48,365 bases of DNA, taken from the NCBI GenBank assembly GCA_944319915.1, contig CALUEY010000012.1:1-48365 (forward strand). Reading direction: 5' to 3'. Every line of letters begins with the position of its first letter. The stretch's first letter is position 1. This DNA comes from an uncultured Prevotella sp. GTDB lineage: Bacteria; Bacteroidota; Bacteroidia; Bacteroidales; Bacteroidaceae. Positions 8,335 to 48,195 of this stretch are shown piece after piece. The notes under the pieces are model-generated. The model did not search any database and was not told the DNA's origin. It was given only the letters and a program-made list of their open reading frames with translations. The translations under genes were made by a program, and so were the position numbers.

Positions 8335-8422
8335 GCAAAACACGTCGTTCGGCATTGCAAAAGAGGCCGTATTGGAAGGCCAAACGGCACATATCATAAC
8401 GCCAAACGGCACATTCCGCAAG
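8335..8422. repeat. 22-bp-period repeat array A (four units)
   Basis: Units start at 8335, 8357, 8379 and 8401, exactly 22 bases apart. Each begins GCAAAA or GCCAAAC; the first two keep a CGT half-site core followed by TCGGC or ATTGG. A degenerate fifth unit may run to 8444. It is the most degraded of five related arrays (others at 18455, 24041, 33287, 47975). It sits in an 800-base gene-free interval (7944-8745) in which I find no supportable gene. Confidence 0.7.
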
Positions 8423-18312: not shown

Positions 18313-18454
18313 CTACTTTAATCCTGCATACGCGGGATATTGCGCTCGCTTTTAATTTTGTTTAACGATATTGCGGTGCATACGGCACCTTAATCATGTA
18401 AAAATATTTCATAGCCCCGCCAACATTAGATAACTCCTTGATATCCAAGGCGTT

Positions 18455-18543
18455 GCAAAACGATCCGTTTTAGATGCCAAAACAAGCCGTTTCTGCCTTC
18501 CAAAAGGGCCGTTTTGCGGGCTGGAAAGGGCCGTTTTGCACCG
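18455..18543. repeat. 22-bp-period repeat array B (four units)
   Basis: Four units, with the A-rich half-sites beginning near 18457, 18479, 18502 and 18524 (22-23 bases apart), each followed by CCGTTT or CCGTTTTGC. Typical unit: CAAAAGGGCCGTTTTGC. It lies between the divergent GH105 and GH31 promoters. Related to the arrays at 8335, 24041, 33287 and 47975. Confidence 0.75.
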
Positions 18544-18638
18544 CCGTTTGCACCGGCCAGGAGTTTTGTAAACAAAAATCATCTATCCATCGAGCAGTAA
18601 AAGCTCCGCCGCCGAGCTAAAAAACACTCCTGCACGCC

Positions 18639-21789: not shown

Positions 21790-23988
21790 ATGAAACGCTT
21801 ATTCATACAGATCATCGCCGCTGCGGCCACGCTGCAGGCCGCGGCGCAAAGCGAAACACCCGTATACCTCGACCCTAACGCCCCGGTGGAGGAACGCGTG
21901 CAGGACGCGCTAAGCCGCATGACGCTCCACGAGAAAGTTCAAATACTCCACGCGCAGAGCAAGTTCTCATCGGCGGGAGTGCCGCGGTTAGGCATCCGCC
22001 AGCTCAACTATTCCGACGGGCCTCACGGAGTGCGCGAGGAAATTGAGTGGAACTCGTGGAGCCCCGCGCGCTGGACCAACGACTCGTGCGTGGCATTCCC
22101 GTCGCTGACGTGCCTCGCCGCCACCTGGAACCGCGACCTCTCCACCCTCTACGGCGATGCCGTGAGCGAGGAGTTTGCCTACCGGGGAAAGGACGTGATG
22201 CTCGGCCCTGGCACCACAATAGCCCGTATGCCGCTCAACGGACGGGCCTTTGAGTACATGGGCGAGGACCCTTACCTGGCCGGGGAGATGGCCGTACCCT
22301 ACATAAAGGCGGCGCAGGCCAACGGCGTGGCGTGCTGCCTGAAGCACTTTGCGCTGAACAACCAGGAGGTGGGGCGCATGACCGTGAACGTCAACGTTAG
22401 CGAGCGCGCCCTCAGGGAGATATACCTGCCGGCCTTCGAAAAGTGCGTAAAGGAGGGCGGCCTGTGGACCATCATGGGGTCGTACAACCGCTGGCTCGGC
22501 AAGCACTGCTGCCACAACGACTCCCTGCTCAACGGGATACTGAAGCGCGAGTGGGGCTTTGACGGAGCCGTGGTGAGCGACTGGGGCGGCACGCACGACA
22601 CGTGGGAGTCGGCCACGGGCGGGCTCGACATCGAGATGGGCACCGGCACCGATGGCAAGACCACCGACAAGGGCCTGGGCTACAACACGTACTACCTGGC
22701 CGACCCCTTCGAGCAGATGGTGCGCGAGGGCAAGGTGCCCATGGCGGTGCTCAACGACAAGGCTGCGCGCGTGCTCCGCACGATATTCCGCACAGCCATG
22801 AACCCTCGCAAGGTGATAGGCTCGCAGTGCTCCGAGGCCCACTACGAGGCTTGCCAAAGGATAGGCGAAGAGGGCATGGTGCTGCTGCGCAACGAGGGGG
22901 CAACGCTGCCGATAGACGCCGCCAAGTATGGCCACATACTCGTGGTGGGCGACAACGCCGTGCGCAACATGAGCGCCGGGGGAGGCTCTTCGGAGCTGAA
23001 GACCAAGCGCGACATATCGCCCCTTGAGGGCCTGCGCGCCGCCTTTGGCGACAAGGTAGACTTTGCCCGCGGCTACTACGCCGGGCGCGCGCTCTACGCC
23101 AAGGCCGACAAGCTCGACCCCGACTCGCTGCGCCGCCTGCGCGACGAGGCTCTTGAGAAAGCCAAGCAGGCCGACCTGATAATATTCATTGGCGGACTGA
23201 ACAAGAACGGGCATGAGGACTGCGAGAACTCCGACCGCAAGTCGTTCAGCCTCTCCTACGGGCAGAACGAGCTGATAGAGGCACTGGCCAAGGTGCAGAA
23301 GAACATCGTGGTGGTTACCTTCGGCGGAAACGCTTACGCCACGCCATGGATCAATGACGTGAAGGCCCTGATGCACTGCTGGTATCTCGGCTCAATGTCG
23401 GGCAAGACGCTGGCCGCCGCCCTCACCGGCGAGGTGAACCCGAGCGGCAAGCTGCCCGTTACCTTCGGAAAGCGGCAGCAGGACTATCCCTGCTTCCAAT
23501 ATGGCGAGGAGGGCTACCCCGGCGTTGGCGGGCAGGTATATTACAAGGAAGGCATATACGTGGGCTACCGGTGGTTCGGCACAAAGGGCGTGGAGCCGCA
23601 GTTCCCATTCGGCTTCGGCCTGAGCTACACCACCTTCAAGTATGGCAAGCCAAGGCTCTCGACCTCATCGCTCACGGCCGATGGCAAGCTTACGCTCACC
23701 GTAAGCGTAACCAACACCGGCAAGCGCGCAGGCAAGGAGACAGTGCAGCTATACATCGGCGACGAGAAAGCGAGCGTAGACAGGCCCCGCAAGGAGCTGA
23801 AAGGATTTGAGAAAGTGGAGCTGCAACCTGGCGAGACTAAGGATGTGAGCTTCGAAATAACGCCCGGAGCCCTGCAGTTCTGGTCGGACAAGACGCACTC
23901 GTGGACTGCCGAGCCGGGCCGCTTCAAGGCTTACGTATGCGCCAGCGAGACCGACGTGAGAGGCACGGCCACGTTCAGCCTCGACTAA
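21790..23988 (+). CDS. GH3 beta-glucosidase-type glycosidase
   Basis: A 732-residue exported enzyme (signal peptide ending near LQAAAQ). Domain order is GH3 barrel (about 30-330), GH3 C-terminal alpha/beta domain (about 375-590) and a fibronectin-III-like tail (about 640-730). The nucleophile is Asp264 in VVSDWGGTHD; substrate-pocket motifs CCLKHFALNNQE and SDGPHGVREE are intact. Together with the GH31 enzyme it fits stepwise xyloglucan oligosaccharide breakdown (glucose removal after xylose). Exact linkage is not determinable from sequence. Confidence 0.92.
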   Translation: MKRLFIQIIAAAATLQAAAQSETPVYLDPNAPVEERVQDALSRMTLHEKVQILHAQSKFSSAGVPRLGIRQLNYSDGPHGVREEIEWNSWSPARWTNDSCVAFPSLTCLAATWNRDLSTLYGDAVSEEFAYRGKDVMLGPGTTIARMPLNGRAFEYMGEDPYLAGEMAVPYIKAAQANGVACCLKHFALNNQEVGRMTVNVNVSERALREIYLPAFEKCVKEGGLWTIMGSYNRWLGKHCCHNDSLLNGILKREWGFDGAVVSDWGGTHDTWESATGGLDIEMGTGTDGKTTDKGLGYNTYYLADPFEQMVREGKVPMAVLNDKAARVLRTIFRTAMNPRKVIGSQCSEAHYEACQRIGEEGMVLLRNEGATLPIDAAKYGHILVVGDNAVRNMSAGGGSSELKTKRDISPLEGLRAAFGDKVDFARGYYAGRALYAKADKLDPDSLRRLRDEALEKAKQADLIIFIGGLNKNGHEDCENSDRKSFSLSYGQNELIEALAKVQKNIVVVTFGGNAYATPWINDVKALMHCWYLGSMSGKTLAAALTGEVNPSGKLPVTFGKRQQDYPCFQYGEEGYPGVGGQVYYKEGIYVGYRWFGTKGVEPQFPFGFGLSYTTFKYGKPRLSTSSLTADGKLTLTVSVTNTGKRAGKETVQLYIGDEKASVDRPRKELKGFEKVELQPGETKDVSFEITPGALQFWSDKTHSWTAEPGRFKAYVCASETDVRGTATFSLD

Positions 23989-24040
23989 GAAAAAGCCTTA
24001 CAAAAGCCCTGCGAAAAGCAGGTTTGTGCCGAACAGGGCT

Positions 24041-24128
24041 GCAAAACGGGCCGTTCGGCACCGCGAAACGGACTGTTCGACACCGCAAAACGGGCTGTTC
24101 TGCAATGCAGGACGGCCCGTTTTGCAAT
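24041..24128. repeat. 22-bp-period repeat array C (four units)
   Basis: Units start at 24041, 24063, 24085 and 24107, exactly 22 bases apart. Typical unit: GCAAAACGGGCCGTTCGGC. It lies between the GH3 stop and the tsaA promoter, and a degenerate unit may precede it from about 24018. Confidence 0.85.
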
Positions 24129-24226
24129 GTATTGAGATTCAGTATGTTACGCGGAATCATGCGTTTTATGAATTTGTTTTACAGAAATTGGGCGCCCACC
24201 CGCTACCGGCATCACCGGAAAATGAG

Positions 24227-33164: not shown

Positions 33165-33286
33165 CGAAATTATTTTGAATGCGCGGCGGTTTTTACTTTT
33201 ATTATCACCTATGCGGCCGCGCCGTGCTTGTAAACTTTCGTTACCACCGCACCGCCTTGGCGCAACAGCCTGTGCGTCAAGGCGTT

Positions 33287-33374
33287 GCAAAACGTACCGT
33301 TTTGCAACGCGAAACGGCACGTTTTGCACCCTGAAACGTGCCGTTTTGCGCCCTGAAATGGGCCGTTTTGCATT
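33287..33374. repeat. 22-bp-period repeat array D (four units, best preserved)
   Basis: Units start at 33287, 33309, 33331 and 33353, exactly 22 bases apart. The first reads GCAAAACGTACCGTTTTGC plus AAC and is a near-perfect palindrome; the others read GCGAAACGGCACGTTTTGC, CTGAAACGTGCCGTTTTGC and CTGAAATGGGCCGTTTTGC. The right half (CGTTTTGC) is invariant in all four. It lies between the divergent lysS and 33579 genes; right after it come two CACCGGCCGG copies. Confidence 0.92.
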
Positions 33375-33509
33375 CCCGCACCGGCCGGCACCGGCCGGAA
33401 TGAGACTTTTGTAATGTAAAATTACCGATTTGAAGCCATCAGCAATGGCCGCTTCAAGCCGTGAATCATATCAAAACACAAAGTTTTATGGGCAATATTC
33501 AATGCCAAA

Positions 33510-41924: not shown

Positions 41925-41959
41925 CGTCAGTGACACTGCCACTGATGCCAACAGCCTAC

Positions 41960-42000
41960 AGACCGCCTCTCATGTAGCCTCGCTACCTGGGAGGCGGTCT
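41960..42000 (+). terminator. Hairpin after menD
   Basis: A 10-bp stem (AGACCGCCTC at 41960-41969 with 41991-42000) carrying an inner GTAGC/GCTAC hairpin; 36 bases past the menD stop. It lies between converging menD and the XRE-like gene and may stop both. Confidence 0.72.
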
Positions 42001-42021
42001 TCGCGTTTTGCGCCTCGCAGT

Positions 42022-42270
42022 TCATTGCGAGCCATTGCCGACGGTATCTGTCAGCCCGGCCCGTGCCATCTCGCACGATATGTCAAGGAAGAAATCGTGT
42101 TGCAGTATGTGAGATATGCGTACCAACAGGTCGGTGTCAATGGCCTTGCGGCTGAATATATCGTAGATGTTGTTGCGCCCGCAACTCAATTGTTCGGCAA
42201 ACCACACCACGGTATGCGCCTTGGGGTGCTTGTCAAACTCGGCTTTTATCATCTTTCCAACGTGAATCAT
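42022..42270 (-). CDS. Small XRE-like helix-turn-helix protein
   Basis: A predicted 82-residue DNA-binding protein (99 residues if it starts at ATG 42321). The HTH region reads HTVVWFAEQLSCGRNNIYDIFSRKAIDTDLLVRISHIL and ends with the LQHDFFLD motif seen in a small family of Bacteroidales HTH proteins. I chose the Met of MIHVGKMIKAEF as start because related proteins begin there; ATG 42309 and 42321 are alternatives. The gene is transcribed toward menD on the opposite strand. A long dyad-symmetric leader lies upstream. Target unknown. Confidence 0.8.
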   Translation of the reverse strand: MIHVGKMIKAEFDKHPKAHTVVWFAEQLSCGRNNIYDIFSRKAIDTDLLVRISHILQHDFFLDISCEMARAGLTDTVGNGSQ

Positions 42271-42360
42271 GTAGTTCTCGCTTGTTGGTTTACCAGCCGC
42301 ACGCCCCATGGCGGCAAACAACTCAGTTTACAGGCATGAAAAAAAGCGCAGGACGAGTTC

Positions 42361-42540
42361 AGTTTATCTTATCCGAGGCATCGCCAAACGCCCTTCCAGA
42401 AACAAACAGTCCACTCCCACGCCTTAATCGAATATCGATATTCCCTTGTCGGGAGTGGATATACGACAAGCCGAGGCGTTTTGTGACGGCTCTCTCCTTC
42501 TGGAAAATTTTGGCGAATTTCGGATAAAGGACAAAGCAAA
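42361..42540. repeat. Long imperfect inverted repeat (~180 bp) upstream of the XRE-like gene
   Basis: Several nested complementary blocks: TTATCCGA with TCGGATAA, TCGCCAAA with TTTTGGCGA, TTCCAGAA with TTCTGGAA, and TCCACTCCC (42410-42418) with GGGAGTGGA (42451-42459). At the centre is the palindrome GAATATCGATATTC (42430-42443). The arms have diverged but keep order and spacing. It could be a folded 5' leader, a miniature transposable element or a protein-binding dyad. No coding signal. Confidence 0.65.
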
Positions 42541-42594
42541 AACGCTTCTTTTTCTATATCATGTCTCGGATTCCGCCGTAGCGGGAATCCACTG

Positions 42595-42602
42595 CAAAGA
42601 TA
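42595..42602 (-). promoter_or_regulatory. Candidate -7 box for the XRE-like gene
   Basis: TATCTTTG on the minus strand. It would give a leader of over 250 bases that includes the hairpin GGATTCC...GGGAATCC (42568-42590) and the long inverted repeat. No clear -33 box. Confidence 0.4.
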
Positions 42603-42745
42603 CGCATAATATTTGTATATGCCATGGTTAGTATCGTCTTTTTGTGCAATTTGCGATACATTGCAGTGCAGAGTGCCATGAAATCCGCCACACCATGTAT
42701 CAATTCCCATTGCGCATTCTTGCGCCGCGGCTTGATGATTATCAT

Positions 42746-42753
42746 TATCTTTG
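42746..42753 (+). promoter_or_regulatory. -7 box for the BspA-like gene
   Basis: TATCTTTG, 178 bases before the start codon, with TTG 23 bases upstream (42720-42722). The long leader holds no recognisable motif. Confidence 0.45.
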
Positions 42754-42930
42754 CATCCAGCTAACCTGCGCCCGGCAATATGCGAGCAAGCAAACAATGC
42801 ATTAGCTTGCCTTGCCTTAGCCATAGGCCAAAGCAAAACGAAGAAGAATGGAAAACTTGCTGCCTTGCCTGCTGCCCAGCCACCGAGGCAGATTGACATA
42901 GGAACTTAAACAAATTAACATTAAATAGAT

Positions 42931-44023
42931 ATGAGAAACTTTACAAGACAAGTGTTTGTGCTGGCAATATCATTGCTGGCATCAATGCAAGCCTCGGCCT
43001 ACGACTTCGAGGCCGAGGGGATGTATTACAATGTTATCTCCCTTCAAGACTCAACCGTGGAAATAACATCTGGCGACAACAAGTATAGCGGTGATGTTGC
43101 CATACCAGAAACCGTTATATATAAAGGGGGAACATTAACTGTGACTAAGATTGGATTATCTGCTTTTTATAGATGCAGCTCTCTCGAGTCCGTCACAATT
43201 CCTAATAGCGTAAAAACGATTGAACCATCTGCATTTTTACCATAACTCTTTCACATTAGGATCTGGAGTAAACGAAATTCCTTATAAGCGTCCTGGCACG
43301 TATGTGGGAATATTCATAGAAGAATATGATGACCCTGTTCCACCCATCACTAAATTTTACATATCAGACAGTCCTAAAGAGCTATACATCGGAAAAGTCA
43401 ATGGCTTATATTATGAAATAAACAAATTGCCAATAAAAGAGTTATATATTGGCAGACCAATAGAAGTAACGTTTGATGAAGATAAAATACACTCCGCAAG
43501 CTTAGAAAGAATAGAACTTGGAGGCTGCTTGAAATCTGATGACTTCATAAATTACTACGAAGCTTTTGAATTACCGGATTCTTGCAAAACAATCGTTTAT
43601 GGTGACAGCATCGAAAGAATAAGCCATCCAATCGAGTCTGCATCGGAGATTTATCTGAAATGCCCCACACCGCCGCAAACCGAAGAATGGTCTATCGACA
43701 ACTATCTCAACACCATTGTTTATGTACCAAAAGGCACGCTTTCAGATTATCAGGCAGCCGATGTGTGGAAGAACTTCTGGGAAATAAAAGAATGGGATGT
43801 AGCATCGGACATAAGCACTCCCACCCAAACAACAAGCATAGCCGTCACCGCAGATGGCAGGCAAATAACAATAAAAACCGGCGGACAAAAGCTACGCGTG
43901 ATGGTGTATAATGCAGGCGGAAACCTGATATACGATGGCAACGAAAACACCGTGAATGTCAACGCCCCGGGGCTTTACATAGTCAGGGCAGGAAGTCTTG
44001 CAAAAAAATTGCTCATAAAATGA
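42931..44023 (+). pseudogene. BspA-like leucine-rich-repeat surface protein, frameshifted
   Basis: The first frame (42931-43245) encodes a signal peptide (MRNFTRQVFVLAISLLASMQASA) and the start of BspA-type repeats (FYRCSSLESVTIPNSVKTIEPSAF), then stops. The second frame (about 43220-44023) continues with SFTLGSGV, further repeats, the BspA element IVYVPKGTLSDYQAADVWKNF and a C-terminal T9SS sorting domain (LRVMVYNAGGNLIYDG ... GLYIVRAGSLAKKLLIK). Removing one T from the five-T run at 43235-43239 joins them as SAFYHNSF. The DNA is AT-rich relative to the men genes. Related surface proteins mediate adhesion. Mutation or assembly error cannot be told apart here. Confidence 0.82.
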
Positions 44024-44457
44024 TTAAAAAGAACAACGAACTGTCAGAACAAGAGAAAATAATGTTCTACAATTTCATGGATTGGGCTAATTGCGTCAAA
44101 GAAAACAGAGGAGGAAAGTTTAACATAACAAATAATGCTTGGCGCAGCTTTATAAACGGCAACAACATAACTCTCTGCTATGTACCACCCATACCAAAAG
44201 CCATGAATGAAAAGAACAAGATTTATTTTACAAAAAGAGCCAATTATTCACCAATATACGAACTGATGACGCACATCAGAAACGCCATTGCCCACTCGCA
44301 AATCACGAAGGTGGATGGTTGCTTTGTTCTGCATGACATATCCAAATCTAAAAAGAAGGAAGACACCATGCAAGCCAAGGTTGATGAGGACATGATGCAA
44401 GGACTTCTTGATGCTATCAAAAATAATTATACAATCAAGAAAAAGAACAAAAAATAA
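44020..44457 (+). CDS. HEPN-like protein
   Basis: A 145-residue AT-rich gene product, basic and Lys-rich, with no signal peptide. HIRNAIAHSQI contains the HEPN-type R-N-x3-H signature (RNAIAH), which in active HEPN domains is the metal-independent RNase site. The rest is helical. Its ATG overlaps the stop of the BspA-like gene (ATGA), so it is translated from the same mRNA. No nucleotidyltransferase (MNT) antitoxin partner is adjacent. It could be an RNase toxin or an inactive HEPN protein; family assignment rests on one motif. Confidence 0.6.
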   Translation: MIKKNNELSEQEKIMFYNFMDWANCVKENRGGKFNITNNAWRSFINGNNITLCYVPPIPKAMNEKNKIYFTKRANYSPIYELMTHIRNAIAHSQITKVDGCFVLHDISKSKKKEDTMQAKVDEDMMQGLLDAIKNNYTIKKKNKK

Positions 44458-44522
44458 CTGACTTACACAGCCACAGCCGGCTAATGCTTACGGCCTGCCC
44501 GGCCTATGCCGTGGTCTTCAGT

Positions 44523-44568
44523 TTCCGCCCTGCCTCATATCATGAACGGCAGGGCGGAACTTTTATTT
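44523..44568 (+). terminator. Terminator after the HEPN-like gene
   Basis: A perfect 12-bp stem (TTCCGCCCTGCC at 44523-44534 with 44548-44559) and the tail CTTTTATTT. The rest of 44570-44718 holds nothing that I can support. Confidence 0.85.
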
Positions 44569-44718
44569 CCACCTCATATTTTATTATAGAGCCCACAAGT
44601 AAAGCCCCCATGAGGCAAACCGCCCTGACACACTTCGCGCGCCACTGCTTTACCTGCCCTTTACTACATTTTATGCAAAAACGCCCGGTGCCCTTACGTA
44701 TGTTCGGCAAAATAGCAT

Positions 44719-44726
44719 TACCTTTG
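44719..44726 (+). promoter_or_regulatory. -7 box for menB-menC-menE
   Basis: TACCTTTG, 125 bases before menB. It gives the second half of the men genes its own start after the accessory insertion. No good -33 box. Confidence 0.55.
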
Positions 44727-44851
44727 CATCGGCCAAGGCAATGCGCAGCCATCGGCGCCAGGCACGGCACAGAGCCCTCACCGTACAATGGCCGCGCCAA
44801 GGCCAATCATGAGCCATTGCCGGCAAAAAAAACAACAAAAGATTAATCTAC

Positions 44852-47793: not shown

Positions 47794-47974
47794 CTCCTTA
47801 TTATTCGCTTTTCCTGACATTGCTGAACCATCATGAACCAAAAGCGACCGAGGCGCAAAGGCAGCTCCGTGCATGCCGCAAGCACGGCGGCAGGGGCAGC
47901 ACGTGGAAACAATGCGTGTAAAGTTTTTTCGCAAGATGGGCATCACTACGCAACCATCTGAGCCTCAACAAGTT

Positions 47975-48062
47975 GCAAAACAGTCCGTTTGAGCTTGCAA
48001 AACCTGCCGTTTGACAGTGCGAAACAGGCCGTTCGGCTATCTAAAACCAGGCTGTTCGGCAA
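47975..48062. repeat. 22-bp-period repeat array E (four units)
   Basis: Units start at 47975, 47997, 48019 and 48041, exactly 22 bases apart; typical unit GCAAAACCTGCCGTTTGAC. It lies in the 47714-48300 interval after menE, which holds no gene I can support. Confidence 0.85.
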
Positions 48063-48195
48063 AGCGAGCCGGCAGATGCAGCCAGCCTGCCCATACTTTG
48101 TAATAATCGTTCGCACCTGCCATGGGCCGCGCAAGGAAGCAAGCCACCATGCAGAAAAAATTTGCCCGGAGGCCGGGTTTAAGCAAAAAAATGCG

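Follow-up and report, generated by a model that had tools for sequence, protein, structure and literature searches.

The arrays of near-palindromic 22-bp units in a 48,365-nucleotide stretch of an uncultured Prevotella genome (hereafter, the window) are the core of an element of approximately 198 bp with a leader dyad and end motifs. Comparison with one sister genome suggests that copies of this element stay at their loci and retain their spacing and, thus, that the elements probably do a job. From sequence comparisons, we consider it quite probable that the arrays are a selected binding element acting at the level of DNA, the binding itself being putative.

Five arrays in the window and the anatomy of the element

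All five arrays listed in the preliminary description of the window were recovered, each with four units. Using a symmetric unit matrix, the five chains scored 92, 88, 68, 67 and 67 bits; the next-best chain within the window scored 8.0 bits, and the maximum in ten first-order Markov shuffles was 17 bits. The arrays and elements are as follows:

33287..33374, + strand: array of four near-palindromic 22-bp units (19-bp core and 3-bp linker), period 22/22/22
33287, 33309, 33331 and 33353 (starts), + strand: units of the 33287 array, chain score 92.4
33263..33286, + strand: leader dyad of the 33287 element, CAAC..CTG.....CAAGGCGTT, adjoining unit 1
33228..33425, + strand: whole element of the 33287 array, with left end TTGTAAACTTTCGTTACC, leader, array, tail and right end TTTTGTAATGTAAAATTACC
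24038..24125, - strand: array of four units, period 22/22/22, with units at 24041-24107 on the + strand
23987..24184, - strand: whole element of the 24041 array, with both end motifs, starting at the stop codon of the gene at 21790-23988
18455..18542, + strand: array of four units, period 22/22/22
18396..18593, + strand: whole element of the 18455 array, left end motif recognised
8335..8422, + strand: array of four diverged units, period 22/22/22, orientation uncertain
47975..48063, + strand: array of four units, period 22/22/23
47916..48113, + strand: whole element of the 47975 array, both end motifs recognised

The units are indeed near-palindromes, with the consensus GCVAAACRGSCYGTTTBGC followed by three free bases. 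Because they are separated by these 3-bp linkers alone and unique spacers between the repeats are absent, the arrays are not CRISPR arrays, as had been concluded before. An array with irregular spacing had also been described and does exist; however, it is the 47975 array, which has an extra base in unit 4 that is missing in the sister species, whereas the 18455 array is regular. The 24041 element has no gap columns in array, leader or tail when aligned to its sister-species ortholog, and the 8335 array is 78% identical to the colinear sister array with no gap columns. An end motif was recognised on neither side of the 8335 array, and the right motif of the 18455 element, TTTTGTAAAC, lies approximately 14 bp closer than usual, as judged by eye. 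The genes beside the window arrays (lysS, GH88, GH31, GH3, TrmO, PurN and a queuosine transporter), which have housekeeping and glycan functions, are mutually unrelated, and a search of the window for Rfam families gave no match at the gathering score.

As a separate observation, window positions 41925-44851 have a GC content of 44.7% (57.5% for the window), contain neither an array nor a called gene of own-like codon usage, and include an ORF (44020-44457) with a weak, below-cut-off HEPN match (PF18736, E 3e-4); this region is possibly acquired DNA.

Column information defined the element as conserved from about -64 to +140 of the array start, with approximately zero information outside. Its parts are arranged in the order end motif, ~35 bp, leader dyad (CAAC..YTGR.....YCAR..GTT, located 5' of unit 1), four palindromic sites at one per 22 bp, ~35 bp and second end motif. 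The majority of copies with a recognised end carry the type-1 motif TTTGTAA-n7-TTaC, and the two type-1 ends in the source genome read in one direction; some copies have type-2 ends, with TTAAC...GTTAA as the left and TTGCATATTTGCAA as the right motif. By simple motif tests, at least one end motif was recognised in 87 of 113 copies (both in 48, of which 38 are type 1 and 10 type 2, and one in 39) and none in 26. Recognised type-1 ends keep a constant distance, with TGTAA at -58 in 35 copies and the motif 35 or 36 bp past the array in 48 copies; these distances, like the column information and the pair counts and gene context below, were computed before 21 of the 113 arrays were re-oriented. 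Alignment of 39 high-scoring elements, selected from 45 listed elements by their score to an ungapped model, gave 202 columns from 200-bp inputs, and few gaps are expected in this alignment because an ungapped model made the selection.

Copies in the source genome and their descent in a sister species

The family extends beyond the window, and its unit number and spacing do not vary at random, in line with the preliminary description. Allowing at most one mismatch, the pattern AAACNNNCCGTTTTG matched 333 times in the 2.63-Mb genome and the reversed pattern 77 times; when 150 of its 720 candidates were scored, a model built from the five arrays gave at least 160 matches, the two strands taken together. 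In the fetched stretches of the genome, we identified 114 distinct chains scoring at least 20, of which 113 score at least 30; because the model search scored 150 of the 720 candidates, the true genome count is surely above 113. Four units are present in 87 of the 114 chains, three in 15, five in 10 (several with a weak terminal unit) and two in 2. The geometry is near-invariant despite a mean array identity of 62% (92 arrays; a single pair exceeds 85%): spacing is 22 bp in 332 of 333 unit steps, as counted from the listing of fetched arrays and using a detector that permits unit spacings of 20-24 bp with a small penalty if the spacing is not 22 bp. For the 200-bp elements, the mean identity is 49% and that of the best pair 73%. 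On reversed sequence, the detector returned 68 chains; as reversed palindromic arrays still score, this control is invalid and Markov shuffles were taken instead. In the sister genome G396, 377 kb contain 32 arrays, which scales up to approximately 220 per genome, and the elements in hand are roughly half of those in the source genome.

Consistent with the intergenic location noted previously, none of the 113 arrays overlaps a called gene (own codon-usage gene caller). A flanking gene was called on both sides of 106 arrays, which lie in 51 tandem, 35 divergent and 20 convergent gaps. Among 102 clear cases, 50 elements are on the + and 52 on the - strand, with no replication-strand bias, and beside tandem genes the element strand is the same in 25 cases and opposite in 26. 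In the 35 divergent gaps, the distance to the nearer gene start ranges from 97 to 562 bp and the position is not fixed, and in 44 of the 51 tandem gaps the array is closer to the upstream stop. The mixed gaps, balanced orientation and unrelated neighbours argue against a terminator, a promoter operator and a mark of replication polarity.

At both ends of contig C1 (L001, G000:C1:1-1602; L007, G000:C1:238930-240557), an array is broken within unit 3 by one common sequence, GTATTCTAAGACTTAAGCAAG..., which would fit an insertion sequence that has array units as its target. Some insertion sequences target REP elements.

G396 is an uncultured Prevotella MAG (BRZ_LE__bin5) whose flank matches are 82-99.8% identical, and all ortholog pairs derive from this one MAG. 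When 112 source arrays were blasted to the 377 kb of G396, 18 had colinear flanks; the remaining arrays gave a few non-colinear matches or had one flank or none, as the fetched share predicts. An array is present in G396 at 17 of the 18 colinear loci. At the 18th, a 3.65-kb AT-rich insertion (39% GC over the stretch) has replaced most of the array, and leader and unit remnants are left. Neither an empty site nor a clean element insertion was found at the 18 colinear loci. Moreover, the ortholog was the best match of the G396 copy among the 113 source elements in 13 of 15 tests, with identities of 0.59-0.92 over 200 bp in these 13, compared with 0.49-0.67 for the best non-ortholog across the 15 tests. 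In the other two tests, the ortholog ranked third (L050 1626) and 112th (the 8335 array, whose orientation is uncertain). Thus, the loci evolve separately, by descent in place rather than by exchange.

For the analysis of indels and substitutions, three pairs with one flank (window 33287, window 47975 and L065 7086) were added by hand, giving 20 aligned pairs, and the near-identical pairs L028, L050 8685 and window 47975 were excluded from the tests, leaving 17. With mafft, these 17 pairs have six indels in 3377 bp inside the elements vs 73 in 6674 bp of flanking intergenic DNA. Using a pairwise aligner with eight settings, indels per base were 3- to 6-fold fewer inside the elements (P 9e-8 to 2e-11). 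Because a single homologous flank inflates the outside indels, the pairs window 33287 and L065 7086 were later dropped; for the 15 pairs with two flanks and with doubtful flank blocks cut, indels were still 2- to 4-fold fewer inside under the eight settings (P 8e-5 to 2e-3). Substitution followed column information, being 0.37-0.38 in columns of <0.15 bit, ~0.31 and 0.21 in the next two classes and 0.13 in columns of at least 1 bit; in coding DNA it is 0.098. Over the whole element, substitution is 0.24-0.25 vs 0.19-0.28 in neighbouring intergenic DNA, i.e. the element is not more conserved, and its free columns change faster than adjacent intergenic DNA. An earlier comparison, in which whole elements appeared to evolve faster than their surroundings, had mixed coding and intergenic flanks; with these separated, the element is near the intergenic rate. 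In total, arrays kept at 17 of 18 loci, best-matching orthologs in 13 of 15 tests and the depletion of indels, all relative to one sister genome, contradict a freely decaying mobile repeat, which had been named as the main alternative in the preliminary description.

Element copies can nevertheless change in number. In the source genome, L065 (G000:C5:90700-108050) contains two elements ~5.5 kb apart with 88% identity over units and tail and 46% on the leader side, and a BpuSI-like restriction enzyme, a C5 methylase and an N6 methylase lie between them (L065 1488-7225). In G396, the outer flanks of both elements adjoin one single element and the cassette is absent; this fits either arrival of the cassette together with a second element or its loss from G396 when two elements recombined. 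Along the G396 chromosome, one copy recurs per ~12 kb and none of 29 intervals is shorter than 5 kb (minimum 5058), with 8.3-9.6 such intervals expected; in simulations placing copies into intergenic gaps, 0 of 4000 reached zero close intervals in each of four variants. Evenness is weak (CV 0.53 vs 0.71, P 0.06). Avoidance of close spacing is not general, as 5 of 24 intervals between listed positions in G100 are shorter than 5 kb, the smallest being 2.5 kb; in the window, 0 of 4 intervals are shorter than 5 kb, which is not significant.

Related arrays in other Prevotella and known repeat families

We searched other genomes with a frame pattern, AAAn7TTTnGCnnnGCnAAAn7TTT, that is blind to the unit core. 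It matched in 30 of 150 genomes of the same genus, with 0 or 1 match each for the reversed control, and was absent from the other 120; the richest genomes were G100 (239 matches), G017 (170), G074 (69) and G094 (50). In 246 other genomes of the order, the frame pattern occurred once in each of 6 genomes and the reversed control in 7, i.e. at chance level. Matches of a genome scan in three Hymenobacter genomes (L101, L113 and L120) were set aside: they are copies of one perfect two-arm hairpin (AAACGGCCGGTTTTGCCCCGCAAAACCGGCCGTTT, in either complement) with a T run behind it, which resembles two units but is a common type of terminator. Prevotella lacticifex has 45 matches (control 9), and five uncultured Prevotella MAGs have 16-69 (control 0-1, and 13 in one). 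Five units are present in 11 of 13 fetched P. lacticifex arrays, and three to seven in others; thus, the count of four units, noted earlier at all five loci, is a rule in the source genome (87 of 114 chains) and not across the genus. Unit cores also vary by lineage.

In a motif-free lag scan of 80-120 kb from each of seven other genomes, the number of windows at lag 22 was 0 in G009, 2 in G040, 5 in G061, 6 in G136, 8 in G016, 10 in G010 and 12 in G004. Lags 19, 20, 23, 25 and 26 gave 0-1 windows in the same seven genomes, and lags that are multiples of three are higher because of coding DNA. Of the 43 windows at lag 22, 20 are clearly palindromic, none of them in G040; the frame pattern did not match anywhere in G061, G016 or G040. 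G061 and G058 share a unit, TACGTCsCGACGTA, wholly different in sequence from the source units, in eight arrays of three to five units, none of which is in a called gene, with 22-bp spacing in 23 of 23 steps, although the searches themselves presupposed 22 bp. In G061, the corresponding pattern gave 22 and 13 matches, with a raised reversed control (5 and 7). These arrays are dispersed in G061 (e.g. L249:9915 and L252:5703), some are in G058, and G139 has one pattern match. In G016:C1, L254-L257 and L144 hold 22-bp-period arrays of other units (AAAAGGTAGACCTTTT, TGCGTCAAAAC and GTCATTTTGC), some of them non-palindromic; the L144 array has seven units. Arrays with other sequences may be homologous to the source element or may resemble it in geometry alone. 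Recurrence of the 22-bp period had been put forward as a check; 22-bp-period arrays do occur in other Prevotella, with unit sequences that differ by lineage and unit numbers that differ by species.

The closest published counterpart of the source element is PINSR, an intergenic repeat of 188 bp in P. intermedia with 177 and 184 copies in two strains (PMC4755523). In the part of that paper describing it, PINSR has no coding sequence, a function given as unknown, roughly three quarters of its regions common to both strains, and a copy downstream of tnaA in P. intermedia ATCC 25611; section 3.4 reports its absence from other Prevotella clades by PCR and, in its description, does not mention 22-bp units, a leader or constraint (PMC4755523). 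Similarly, the source element is intergenic (0 of 113 arrays in called genes), has more than 100 copies, and occupies positions largely common to related genomes (17 of 18 colinear loci); its length is ~198 bp compared with 188 bp. When 100 kb of G100 was queried with a G017 element, three of six matches spanned query positions 15-202 (188 bp) and one spanned 14-200, and G100 has an element ~230 bp downstream of tnaA; no element was found in a 3-kb tnaA locus of G017. Because length, high copy number and the tnaA copy of G100 match, we take the G100/G017 element as PINSR, a putative assignment made by these features. PINSR is described as lacking terminal inverted repeats; the type-1 ends of the source element read in one direction, and the G017 ends look by eye like short inverted TGTAAA / TTTACA. 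Moreover, the architecture extends beyond the intermedia/nigrescens clade limit of PINSR, being found in P. lacticifex and the five uncultured Prevotella, which we take to lie outside this clade. PINSR, to which the source element is likely related, appears to belong to a wider class whose internal architecture is precise and whose copies are kept in place. Among the papers found on 22-bp repeats of Prevotella, whether tandem or palindromic, on REP/RAYT and on families of dispersed repeats, none came closer.

The BrickBuilt MITE of Porphyromonas gingivalis, a related genus, has a similar leader-repeats-tail plan: as far as it is described in PMC4596501, it is intergenic, has 19 copies with 1 to 22.8 tandem 23-nt repeats (AGAYCATARTATCCTCTCRTRTG) flanked by a leader and a tail, and has IS5-type inverted ends. 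By contrast, the source element has a period of 22, an unrelated sequence, a more regular build and ends of the TTTGTAA or TTAAC/TTGCATA types instead of IS5-type terminal inverted repeats. Target duplications were inspected by eye in a few G017 copies. REP/BIME and REPIN families likewise consist of many intergenic palindromic copies with lineage-specific sequence, but lack the fixed 22-bp period and the ~198-bp architecture, and the source element lacks hairpin covariation. REP/BIME elements are bound by gyrase in E. coli. Dependence on a RAYT-type transposase was considered and rejected: a Y1_Tnp domain (PF01797) was found in 12 of 26 genomes, including the source genome, G004, G069 and G081 (G105 and G396 are probably one genome), and was not found in the array-rich genomes G100, G017, G094 and G136. 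In the source genome, a single 180-aa ORF matches the Y1 transposase (G000:C9:28271-28504; PF01797, E 2e-8), and the nearest array found is ~6 kb away; single matches are likewise present in G069, G081 and G105/G396. Finally, iteron arrays, matS, parS and SlmA sites also consist of short palindromes, phased or repeated, to which dimers bind, but the source family has ~100 or more copies with four phased sites each. We know of no family of at least 100 dispersed four-site phased arrays in Bacteroidota.

Competing explanations and a possible role

In the preliminary description, a folded RNA was one of three options, and a check for covariation between half-sites was proposed. Within units, no pair covaries positively, and in units 2-4 there is an anti-correlation between positions 8 and 12 (z -3.1, -3.6 and -4.2), a result that precedes the re-orientation of the 21 arrays and is independent of orientation. 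This anti-correlation speaks against base pairing and fits paired half-sites of which no more than one may be weak. RNAalifold on the 39 elements gave -0.07 kcal/mol and three pairs, all located in the leader. Units 1 and 2 have mild complementarity above chance (summed z 3.4), and two leader pairs covary (z 5.3 and 5.9); adjacent registers are also large (-9.6 and 4.9), and register differences contribute to the leader covariation. A first covariation scan was discarded because its top pairs arose from leader register differences and wrongly oriented arrays. Hence, arrays of RNA hairpins are rejected by the pair counts within and between units and by RNAalifold, save for the unit 1-2 complementarity and the leader dyad, and there is no conserved RNA fold. 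With no Rfam match in the window and strands balanced beside tandem genes (25 vs 26), a structured RNA or transcribed hairpin array is hardly credible in spite of the near-palindromic units.

The chief rival to a selected docking site is an old mobile family, i.e. a miniature element (MITE-, REPIN- or Tn7/Mu-end-like) moved by a transposase in trans, in which the 22-bp sites would bind the transposase and the wide spacing between copies would reflect target immunity. The unit of ~200 bp with end motifs, inverted by eye in G017 (TGTAAA...TTTACA), is what such an element would have, as are the lineage-specific sequences and many copies per genome; the arrays upstream of lysS in the source genome and G074 have opposite orientations and different flanks, close copies are avoided in G396, and an extra element lies beside the restriction-modification cassette in the source genome. 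A possible parallel is the right end of Tn7, which contains four 22-bp TnsB sites within about 90 bp. However, the 18 colinear loci offer no empty site or clean insertion, 13 of 15 copies descend in place with few indels, recent copies are few (49% mean and 73% best element identity; one array pair above 85%; in G017, the next-best copy is 88% identical to the query), and the Y1 transposase, although present in some array-bearing genomes, was not found in the four array-rich genomes named above. The lineage-specific sequence fits a selfish family better than a docking element, and so does the copy number, but the kept architecture does not; we regard this explanation as unlikely. The two readings would be joined if the element was once mobile and has since been domesticated.

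Other explanations account for less of the data. An operator array, i.e. the regulon of a transcription factor on four cooperative promoter-near sites, would suit phased palindromes that are intergenic and, in 35 of 106 cases, lie in divergent gaps; such an array is improbable given the unfixed distance to gene starts (97-562 bp), the 20 of 106 arrays in convergent gaps, the proximity of 44 of 51 tandem copies to the upstream stop and the unrelated genes beside the window arrays. Ectopic gene conversion between copies could keep motif and length uniform even if individual copies are not under selection. In its favour, free columns change faster than flanking DNA, and the two elements 5.5 kb apart are alike over units and tail (88%) but differ on the leader side (46%). 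Against this stand the best-matching orthologs (13 of 15; best non-ortholog 0.49-0.67) and the single array pair above 85% among 92 arrays, and we judge it quite improbable, noting that conversion donors may be missed because about half of the genome's elements are in hand. A neutral minisatellite (VNTR) family would explain tandem 22-bp units and the different unit numbers of species; nevertheless, it is extremely improbable, as unit number and period are nearly fixed in the source genome and the non-repeated leader and ends are conserved.

The best explanation overall, at close to an even call, is a selected nucleoprotein docking site, perhaps chromosome-architectural. Among the three options considered at the outset, the strongest support is for a dimeric protein bound in phase, given the palindromes, the two-turn period, the uncompensated half-site variation and the few indels, with the binding itself still putative. 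Four dimers of a putative sequence-specific protein would bind cooperatively along one side of the helix at intervals of two turns, and additional proteins at the leader and ends would extend this to a nucleoprotein complex of ~200 bp. More speculatively, such complexes might act on the chromosome by nucleoid anchoring, as boundaries of supercoil domains, or by loading a gyrase- or condensin-like machine. A chromosome-level role is likelier than a role for one gene because all gap types are occupied and because of the ~12-kb recurrence and mutual avoidance in G396; we hold a chromosome-architectural role to be possible, somewhat short of an even call. It is rather unlikely, but conceivable, that the geometry is fixed and the recognised sequence replaced by lineage, with a fast-evolving DNA-binding family co-evolving with at least 100 sites per genome and organising the nucleoid. 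To our knowledge, a sequence-specific chromosome-folding system of such kind has not previously been described.

As an apparent member of a wider class, PINSR is no longer a curiosity of one oral species and raises questions that can be tested in a major genus of gut, rumen and mouth: which protein reads the sites, and is the chromosome folded, insulated or supercoiled by it? Changing unit sequence under constant geometry would offer a natural system for protein-DNA co-evolution.

As to the vocabulary of units within one genome, the cores of 30 elements of G017 (L184-L213) switch, by eye, as blocks among CCTACGs, CCTATTG and GCGGCTG. Unit 1 is almost always CCTATTG and units 2 and 3 are usually other cores, i.e. 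the vocabulary is position-dependent.
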